A program made the position numbers and the translations under genes. The notes under the pieces are model-generated. The model saw only the letters and a list, made by a program, of their open reading frames with translations, ran no database searches and was not told where the DNA came from. From IMG/VR virus record IMGVR_UViG_3300027844_000607, positions 1 to 58,606 of that record: 58,606 nucleotides of DNA; one strand, given 5' to 3'. The first letter of the stretch is position 1, and every line of letters begins with the position of its first letter. Below, one piece after another: positions 26,665-45,344 of this stretch. Source of the stretch: a virus.

Positions 26665-26700
26665 AAAAAGGTGCTGGTTTCTGTTGCCAGGAGAGCCAGC
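26665..26700 (-). terminator. Probable terminator of the tmRNA gene
   Basis: GCTGG (26696-26700) pairs with CCAGC (26673-26677) and is followed by ACC and five T. It lies just after the tmRNA coding piece and just before the gp33 ribosome site. The stem is short, so read-through into gp33 is possible. Confidence 0.5.
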
Positions 26701-26741
26701 GTCCCCGCTACACTATTCCTAGTCTAGCAATTTGCGACCAA

Positions 26742-26771
26742 CTAGGCCGCGAGTGCGAACTGGTTATCAGT
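26742..26771 (-). other. tmRNA tag reading frame (ends DNQFALAA-stop)
   Basis: In the coding piece, codons for Asp-Asn-Gln-Phe-Ala-Leu-Ala-Ala are followed by TAG. ALAA is the classic ClpXP/ClpAP degron end. The codon before Asp is ACT (Thr) and the resume codon cannot be fixed from sequence; Ala is more usual there. The stop sits in a hairpin, CCTAGT pairing with ACTAGG downstream. Confidence 0.85.
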
Positions 26772-26854
26772 TCTGTGTGTCTCTGTTTTACGACAGCGAC
26801 TTGTCGATAGCCTCCCCGCGTTCGCACAGTTCCCGTCGAATCTATTTCGCCCCC

Positions 26855-27013
26855 ATCAAAAAAAGATTAGATAAACTACGCCGCTGAGGAGAAATATATC
26901 CGCGCAAATGGACCATACCATATATGCTCTGAGCAGCCACTTGCTTACCTCTTGGGCTAGGGGGTTCTTCATTGTTAAGCCCCTGTAGTTCTTTTTTCAC
27001 GCTAATCTCCTTT
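26855..27013 (-). other. Intervening segment of the permuted tmRNA
   Basis: The 159 bases between the CCA of the acceptor piece and the GGGGGCG start of the coding piece should be excised from the precursor. It begins with an AAAGGAG ribosome-site sequence right after the CCA and is almost completely filled by a 38-codon reading frame (26856-26972). From memory, alphaproteobacterial intervening segments are shorter than this. Confidence 0.8.
26856..26972 (-). CDS. Small membrane protein encoded inside the tmRNA intervening segment (38 aa)
   Basis: ATG at 26972, preceded by CAGGGGCTTAACA, opens 38 codons that end with TGA one base before the first base of the tmRNA coding piece. The peptide starts MKNPLAQEVSKWLLRAY and continues as a single hydrophobic helix (VWSICADIFLLSGVVYLIFF), so it looks like a real inner-membrane miniprotein. 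An alternative GTG frame at 27000-26842 has a better ribosome site (AAAGGAG) but a non-protein-like sequence and runs into the tmRNA; it might act as a leader. No homologue known to me. Confidence 0.55.
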   Translation of the reverse strand: MKNPLAQEVSKWLLRAYMVWSICADIFLLSGVVYLIFF

Positions 27014-27082
27014 TGGTGGAGGCGGCCGGTACTGCCCCGGCGTCCGAAAACCGTTGTCCGCGCTTCAACGACTACAGAAGTA

Positions 27083-27111
27083 ATTATATCACACGCGACG
27101 ACAAATGTCGA
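27083..27111 (-). promoter_or_regulatory. Sigma70-like promoter TCGACA-17-TATAAT for tmRNA
   Basis: TCGACA (27106-27111), 17-base spacer and perfect TATAAT (27083-27088) with TGTGA before it, on the minus strand. The predicted start near 27076 gives an acceptor piece of about 63 nt. It allows host-polymerase expression of the tmRNA independent of neighbours. Confidence 0.75.
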
Positions 27112-35597: not shown

Positions 35598-35682
35598 TGG
35601 CGGAGAGTGCCGGAATCGAACCGACTACCCGATCACCGAGCGACAGTTTTCAAGACTGCTTGCCACCGTTGGCCTACTCTCC
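35598..35682 (-). tRNA. tRNA-Ser (anticodon UGA), CCA encoded
   Basis: A 7-bp acceptor stem GGAGAGT/ACTCTCC is followed by G and an encoded CCA (35598-35600). The D-stem is GCC/GGC, anticodon stem GCAGT/ACTGT with loop CTTGAAA (anticodon TGA at 35650-35652), a long serine-type variable arm with CTCG/CGGG, and T-stem GTCGG/CCGGC with TTCGATT. Length 85 bases. It reads UCA and UCN codons. The stop codon of the upstream gene lies in its 5' acceptor strand. Confidence 0.95.
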
Positions 35683-44702: not shown

Positions 44703-45026
44703 TTAGATACCAAGGGTCAAGCCAGCGATTACCGCGAGGACAACAATAGCACGTGCCAGGATACGTGCGGGTCCGAGTGAGGAGTTCTCTAAGGTTTCAT
44801 CCACAGCAACGGTGTTGCTGAAGAGTGTGCGGTCTGCAAGATACGCGAGAACGATGGCATTGATGACCTGCAAGTTCTTGAAGACAAGAACGGGAATCTG
44901 CTGAAGCGCGATATAGCCCACCACACCAAGCGCGACGACGAGCAACACCCATAGAACACCGTTACGCTTGATTGCCGCAGTGGTGGCGCCGGTCTGATTT
45001 TTGACGAATGCAATAATTGAACTCAT
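44703..45026 (-). CDS. Holin candidate, three-helix membrane protein (107 aa)
   Basis: Hydrophobic segments: VLWVLLVVALGVVGYIAL, LQVINAIVLAYLADRTLF, and ARAIVVLAVIAGLTLGI at the C-terminus. Size, number of helices and place immediately before the transglycosylase fit a class I or III holin. The assignment is inferred from topology and context. Confidence 0.65.
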   Translation of the reverse strand: MSSIIAFVKNQTGATTAAIKRNGVLWVLLVVALGVVGYIALQQIPVLVFKNLQVINAIVLAYLADRTLFSNTVAVDETLENSSLGPARILARAIVVLAVIAGLTLGI

Positions 45027-45035
45027 ATAATCTCC

Positions 45036-45344
45036 TTAGTGGGTTTTATCTTTCGTAGGGTCTTTATGCCAAGATTGTTTCCGCAACCATGTCATGGCGC
45101 CGGTTTTACTATCGCGCAGGATAATGTCGCGTTTACTTTTCCGAGCGTGTAGACGAATTCGTTCACCCTCTTCTTCTACGCCTACATACTTAGCGTAGCG
45201 TTCCCACCGACGTTTCGGTGCTTTGGTCGCCATTACGCCGTCCATATCGGTTTCGAGTACGTCTGCACCAGCGAAGGTATCTTCGTATAGTTGTACGAAT
45301 TCTTCTTCGGTGTAGGTAGCTTCGTCGATCTGCTTACGCGTCAT
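45036..45344 (-). CDS. Hypothetical protein (102 aa)
   Basis: An acidic N-terminal region (EEFVQLYEDTFAGADVLET) and a basic C-terminus (RLHARKSKRDIILRDSKTGA) with a Trp-rich end. It overlaps its upstream gene by 11 bases. No family recognised. Confidence 0.5.
   Translation of the reverse strand: MTRKQIDEATYTEEEFVQLYEDTFAGADVLETDMDGVMATKAPKRRWERYAKYVGVEEEGERIRLHARKSKRDIILRDSKTGAMTWLRKQSWHKDPTKDKTH

Follow-up and report, generated by a model that had tools for sequence, protein, structure and literature searches.

A phage tmRNA spacer as a probable small-protein gene: a conserved membrane-peptide frame between the two pieces of a permuted tmRNA

The spacer of a permuted tmRNA gene in a viral genome is most probably a protein-coding mini-gene, with one precursor carrying both a message and the tmRNA; we would give this reading a probability of about 0.85. 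The DNA analysed is IMG/VR virus record IMGVR_UViG_3300027844_000607, which is 58,606 bases long and is called the window throughout. The earlier note on this DNA had proposed that the precursor would be both an mRNA and a tmRNA precursor. Judged by comparison of homologues, this is very probably so, because the frames in their long gaps are intact, equal in length, and under purifying selection. The phenomenon is also wider than first noticed, since in related viruses the slot is occupied by a variety of other small protein genes.

The major capsid protein of the window shares 58% identity with its counterparts in Pelagibacter phage HTVC008M, Methylophilales phage Melnitz, and Pelagibacter phage Mosig, and the window, which has a GC content of 50.5%, is therefore a marine T4-like phage. 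The tmRNA_permuted model (RF04321) matches it (27076-26742, minus strand, model positions 1-213) with 93 bits, where the gathering score is 47, and the tRNA-like domain is covered in permuted order by the covariance model. The alpha_tmRNA model (RF01849) also matches, with 81.5 bits. By these matches, the gene is a permuted, two-piece tmRNA on the minus strand. When ARAGORN was run on the window, the permuted tmRNA was not called, and a tRNA-Ser (tga) at 35598-35682 on the minus strand was the sole gene returned. Permuted two-piece tmRNAs of the alpha type were reportedly described by Keiler in 2000 and by Sharkady and Williams in 2004. As in that type (RF04321, RF01849), the acceptor piece comes first and is followed by an encoded CCA, an intervening sequence, and the tag-bearing coding piece:

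27083..27111, minus strand: sigma70-like promoter, TCGACA-17 nt-TATAAT with an extended -10 (TG), matching the consensus at 11 of 12 positions, immediately upstream of the tmRNA
27014..27076, minus strand: tmRNA acceptor piece with the encoded CCA (27016-27014) at its end, from the RF04321 and RF01849 alignments
26855..27013, minus strand: intervening segment (spacer), 159 nt, a two-frame cassette of the same length in 44 unique homologous segments
26670..26854, minus strand: tmRNA coding piece, mature 5' end GGGGGCG at 26854, 3' end approximate, from RF04321 and RF01849

The tag frame, as read from the sequence of the coding piece, ends in ...TDNQFALAA and a stop, with its end at 26742, and the hydrophobic degron end of the tag is retained in the relatives L010 and L015. 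By eye, a TATAAT was also seen upstream of the tmRNAs of L006, L010, L015, L070, and L100.

Two overlapping frames follow a Shine-Dalgarno sequence in the spacer of the window:

27007..27013, minus strand: Shine-Dalgarno AAAGGAG, the first bases after the CCA and the 5' strand of the spacer-closing helix
26944..27000, minus strand: leader frame ORF-A, conserved 19-codon part, NTG start in 44 of 44 sequences; the window frame extends to 26842 (52 codons)
26856..26972, minus strand: ORF-B, 38-codon ATG frame, MKNPLAQEVSKWLLRAYMVWSICADIFLLSGVVYLIFF, UGA at 26858-26856; conserved frame, pN/pS 0.22

A 38-codon frame had been said to fill the tmRNA gap and to stop one base before the coding piece. 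The coordinates bear this out (26972-26856 in a spacer of 27013-26855), with the single base 26855 between the UGA of ORF-B and the coding piece. The product is predicted by hydropathy to be a single-span membrane protein (Kyte-Doolittle maximum 2.09 over 19 residues), in agreement with the single-helix membrane peptide that had been claimed. The AAAGGAG after the CCA and the overlapping GTG frame are both present as described, and the GTG start at 27000 lies 6 nt past the AAAGGAG. However, only the phage species of the window has that frame at 52 codons: there, the leader stop has been lost and the frame enters the tmRNA, to terminate within the coding piece; the conserved leader has 18, 19, or 23 codons. 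ORF-A and ORF-B overlap by about 10 codons, and since ORF-A lacks its stop in the window, the coupling of the two frames may be altered there. A +1 slip at the A6 run after the GTG, which would fuse the GTG start to ORF-B, was also considered and was dropped because homologues without the A6 run still retain the ATG of ORF-B.

For the window taken by itself, dinucleotide shuffling of the spacer produces an ATG frame over 75% or more of its length in about 2% of shuffles, and the coding case therefore rests on relatives. Viral contigs were scanned for homologues with a tmRNA pattern, a back-translated motif, and the CCA-Shine-Dalgarno junction. All scans together placed the ORF-B family in the same tmRNA slot in 63 unique spacers (108 loci). 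Forty-four unique spacers are exactly 159 nt long and align without gaps, and frame, length, start position, and stop are all kept. AAAGGAG (AAAGGAA in one) precedes the ORF-A start in every 159-nt segment; in the alignment of the 44 sequences (A1), columns 13-18 of the Shine-Dalgarno are invariant and column 19 is kept in 43. The first set of homologues came partly from a protein-based pattern, and pN/pS was therefore repeated on a protein-blind sample, made up of the 24 unique sequences that the junction pattern retrieves, with the protein ignored. The earlier note had suggested a search of related phages and a test for synonymous-rate bias: the same frame was found, and its pairwise pN/pS, calculated without a tree, is 0.22 (codon bootstrap 0.14-0.32) vs 0.75 and 2.33 in the other frames of the protein-blind sample. 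Stops are absent from the ORF-B frame in this sample (0/24) and present in the other two frames in 24/24 and 22/24 sequences. In the larger set, which was partly chosen by protein motif, the value in the ORF-B frame is 0.17. It had also been noted that gaps without a conserved frame, or with frameshifts or stops in it, would speak against the idea; the long gaps all carry an intact frame of equal length. Comparative evidence of this kind strongly supports a coding status for ORF-B. A chance ORF in the spacer was considered and is ruled out by the frame-specific selection together with the retention of the frame across homologues.

The leader behaves differently. The NTG start of ORF-A has a fixed place in 44/44 sequences, with the T and G invariant amid variable columns, and its length is 18, 19, or 23 codons in 42/44 and much longer in two sequences from the species of the window. 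The part of ORF-A ahead of ORF-B has a pN/pS of about 1.05, and its amino acids therefore look unconstrained. Spacer variants of 119 and 120 nt have no ORF-A, and the same Shine-Dalgarno stands directly before the ORF-B homologue. A second small-protein family, ending in ...Y(E/D)D(L/V)CM and a stop, was observed in the spacers of L161, L171, L273, and L027; in L161, L171, and L273, it replaces ORF-A ahead of ORF-B.

ORF-B gave nothing above the cut-off against Pfam (best DUF2542, E=0.014) or PHROGs (best E=0.42), and this lack of a family match above threshold counts against the mini-gene explanation. A tblastn search with the ORF-B of the window and the family consensus against 50,697 GenBank phages returned no credible match, and a scan of bacterial genome contigs for the exact CCA-SD-ATG junction pattern returned none. 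The likeness of ORF-B to type I toxins is that of a short single-span hydrophobic peptide, a resemblance only.

Two conserved pairings are predicted within the spacer, in addition to the frames:

26859..26870, minus strand: 3' strand of the spacer-closing helix, formed by the last ORF-B codons; pairs with the Shine-Dalgarno region 27013-27002, 97.3% of cells paired in 44 sequences
26960..26983, minus strand: hairpin AGGGG (26983-26979) / CCCCT (26964-26960), enclosing the ORF-B start; 91% of cells paired in 44 sequences

The closing helix has 12 bp and continues, or stacks on, the acceptor stem of the tmRNA. As the ends of the spacer pair in this helix, the Shine-Dalgarno would be base-paired to the last codons of ORF-B. 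In controls, shifting the partners drops pairing to 50-77%. Compensatory changes among the 44 sequences are few, and the support for the helices is therefore conservation of pairing more than covariation.

The nearest tmRNAs (L010, L015, L019, L021, and L050) have pieces 86-89% identical to those of the window and a spacer of 10 nt. At L006, where the neighbouring gene is 71% identical, the syntenic tmRNA likewise has a short spacer. These close relatives lack the frame because their gap has only 10 nt, and the fact that they manage without the cassette is a further point against the mini-gene explanation. The spacer of L238, on the other hand, is 84% identical to that of the window while its tmRNA pieces are only about 40% identical, and the ORF-B cassette has therefore moved horizontally. 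Identical spacers were found even where the tmRNA pieces share as little as 73-85% identity. Free-standing copies of ORF-B lie just upstream of the tmRNA in L148, L156, L157, and L165 and elsewhere outside the spacer in L136, L153, L184, and L188. The GC3 of ORF-B is 0.55 in the window (50.5% GC), whereas it averages 0.37 in the relatives, whose GC content is 39%, which is consistent with a long residence in the GC-richer genome. In L195 (236 nt), a second spacer-like stem, AGAAACACTTGG...CCAAGTGTTTCTGATGG, was seen nested before the ORF cassette.

A second tmRNA type, which matches beta_tmRNA (RF01850) in three of the records tested, was scanned with the protein ignored. The sample comprises 96 unique spacers of at least 40 nt, and in 34 of them an ATG frame takes up 75% or more of the length, vs 1.85 expected. 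All 34 filled spacers end in UGAU; in 27, that UGA is the stop, and these 27 frames stop 1 nt before the mature 5' end. A 24-residue membrane peptide family in beta-type spacers has a pN/pS of 0.29 in frame vs 0.69 and 2.55 out of frame. The spacer of L345 encodes a thioredoxin (PF00085, E=4e-21) inside an RF04321 match of 136 bits. Given the 34/96 filled beta-type spacers, with the thioredoxin included, the spacers of permuted phage tmRNAs are a recurrent site for small protein genes, which are predicted to be mostly single-span membrane proteins. Over all scans, the spacer proteins form 26 clusters, a few of which may be due to chance, and four of the records checked are phage contigs of 278-364 kb. 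Filling frames are rare in the protein-blind alpha-type sample (66 spacers). About two-thirds of the beta-type and nearly all sampled alpha-type spacers are frameless and structured in appearance. Such frameless spacers of both types (e.g., L062, L102, L113, and L324) are often flanked by strong inverted repeats and recur identically on diverged tmRNAs; some contain a T-loop-like GGTTCGA, and they may be unknown small RNAs. A zinc-ribbon-like set (L282/L297/L304/L305/L387) is uncertain.

Group I introns of tRNA, rRNA, and tmRNA genes can contain protein ORFs for endonucleases or maturases. The arrangement described here resembles such intron-encoded proteins in that a protein frame lies within a part of an RNA gene that is removed. 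It differs in that neither an intron nor splicing is involved, the tmRNA pieces stay separate, and the products are small membrane proteins or thioredoxin. An Rfam scan of the window gave no match to an intron family, and the flanks of the spacer are the two tmRNA pieces. In the available text of the literature on permuted tmRNAs, the intervening sequence is treated as discarded, whereas that of the window would be a conserved protein gene. The 2025 tmRNA database, in the part of its description available to us, places a tRNA-Ala and a repetitive element inside intervening sequences and does not mention an ORF (PMC11915505). The open-access literature, to the extent of the text available (PMC11915505, PMC9004378, PMC3985003, PMC7335160, and PMC10117765 included), yielded no report of protein genes in tmRNA spacers. 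Their presence thus seems new within that open-access scope, which is not proof of novelty. Melnitz, Mosig, and HTVC008M, the nearest cultured relatives by major capsid protein (58%), all have a permuted tmRNA. The Melnitz spacer (142 nt) has its own Shine-Dalgarno and an ATG frame (MFKWLSKTRLVVITRDYFRERNRK...) that is open into the coding piece, with no stop in the spacer. This frame has no gene annotation, and only SsrA is annotated (L398 600-850; MZ577095.1 about 44793-45045). Directly after the Melnitz tmRNA lies a glutamine riboswitch (L398:954-1002), as published (PMC9004378). The tmRNA matches are no longer than 215 nt in Mosig and 210 nt in HTVC008M. Alpha-type frames that are open at the spacer end and have no stop within it were also seen in L042 and L064, and as in Melnitz, their coding status is uncertain.

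Other readings of the spacer have to be weighed against the mini-gene. It is scarcely credible that the spacer is non-coding, i.e., a structured RNA or drifted filler with a chance open frame. The many frameless, structured-looking spacers of both types and the equally long frames in about 2% of shuffles of the window spacer would suit such a view, but it is strongly disfavoured by the frame-specific selection, the intact frame in all homologues, and the free-standing copies. Very unlikely, too, is a role of the frames in cis only, in which ribosome traffic opens the closing helix or paces RNase P and the peptide is irrelevant. The pairing of the Shine-Dalgarno with the last ORF-B codons and the resemblance of ORF-A to an unconstrained leader (pN/pS of about 1.05) would fit this role. 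Strong purifying selection on the amino acids of ORF-B, the copies of ORF-B outside the spacer, and unrelated recognisable proteins such as thioredoxin in other spacers all argue against it. The spacer content might instead be a selfish mobile element that targets the tmRNA gap, given that cassettes move between diverged tmRNAs, that identical spacers occur on pieces as low as 73-85% identical, and that the L195 spacer has a nested second spacer-like stem. This is also unlikely, since no recombinase or nuclease is among the encoded spacer proteins, no target duplication was noticed, and a simpler account of the exchange is homologous recombination between the conserved halves of the tmRNA.

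A tentative refinement, which is compatible with the mini-gene explanation, holds that ORF-B acts as a toxin-like or superinfection-exclusion effector, that tmRNA maturation limits its dose, and that its late product is tagged. Because the RNase P cut would leave the UGA one base from the 3' end, late ribosomes could be rescued by the tmRNA of the same precursor. The slot is dominated by unrelated short single-span membrane peptides, and the one-base distance from stop to cut is the commonest arrangement. A precedent for such a loop is ArfA, which an RNase III-cut message makes a target of tmRNA (reviewed in PMC3985003). As in the control of ArfA (PMC3985003 and PMC10107115), a message cut near its 3' end could bring the product under tmRNA control; unlike there, the cut would come from tmRNA maturation itself, just past the stop codon, and tagging of the product is hypothetical here. 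Against the effector, soluble proteins (thioredoxin and others) occupy the same slot, and UGAU precedes the coding piece in many frameless spacers too, and the one-base spacing may therefore reflect inheritance, not selection.

Under the mini-gene explanation, the upstream promoter would give one precursor composed of the acceptor piece, the CCA, the spacer, and the coding piece. We infer expression from this precursor, a coupling through the leader, and the following order of translation and processing. Ribosomes would bind either at an early stage, while the 3' strand of the closing helix has yet to be transcribed, or on the spacer once it is released. Translation of ORF-A would melt the GGGG/CCCC hairpin and make the ORF-B start accessible; it is in this sense that we infer ORF-A to be a translated leader. 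RNase P and CCA-end nucleases would then excise the spacer, and a two-piece tmRNA would remain. The UGA of ORF-B lies in a UGAU that most of these tmRNAs have ahead of the RNase P site, and the message would thus end one base past its stop. From Shine-Dalgarno to UGA, the message and the excised segment are coextensive, as would be expected whether processing releases or destroys the message. The cassette would be one of many exchanged by phages in the tmRNA slot, and our best guess is that the ORF-B protein is a membrane-acting effector of infection.

More generally, permuted phage tmRNA genes might be dual-output genes, a proposal that we consider possible at somewhat less than even odds. 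The spacer would be an exchangeable protein cargo; a helix that extends the tmRNA would close its ribosome-binding site, and the conserved tmRNA leader would provide its stop. Translation of the cargo and maturation of the tmRNA would regulate each other, and the tmRNA could rescue ribosomes from its own spacer message. If the mini-gene explanation is true, the discarded spacer of a classic non-coding RNA is a recurrent protein-coding site, and a set of small phage proteins would come to light that go unannotated where a tmRNA call covers them. It would also be a natural case of mRNA translation and tmRNA maturation competing on one transcript. For phages, recombination between the conserved tmRNA halves would offer a simple route to swap cargo genes.
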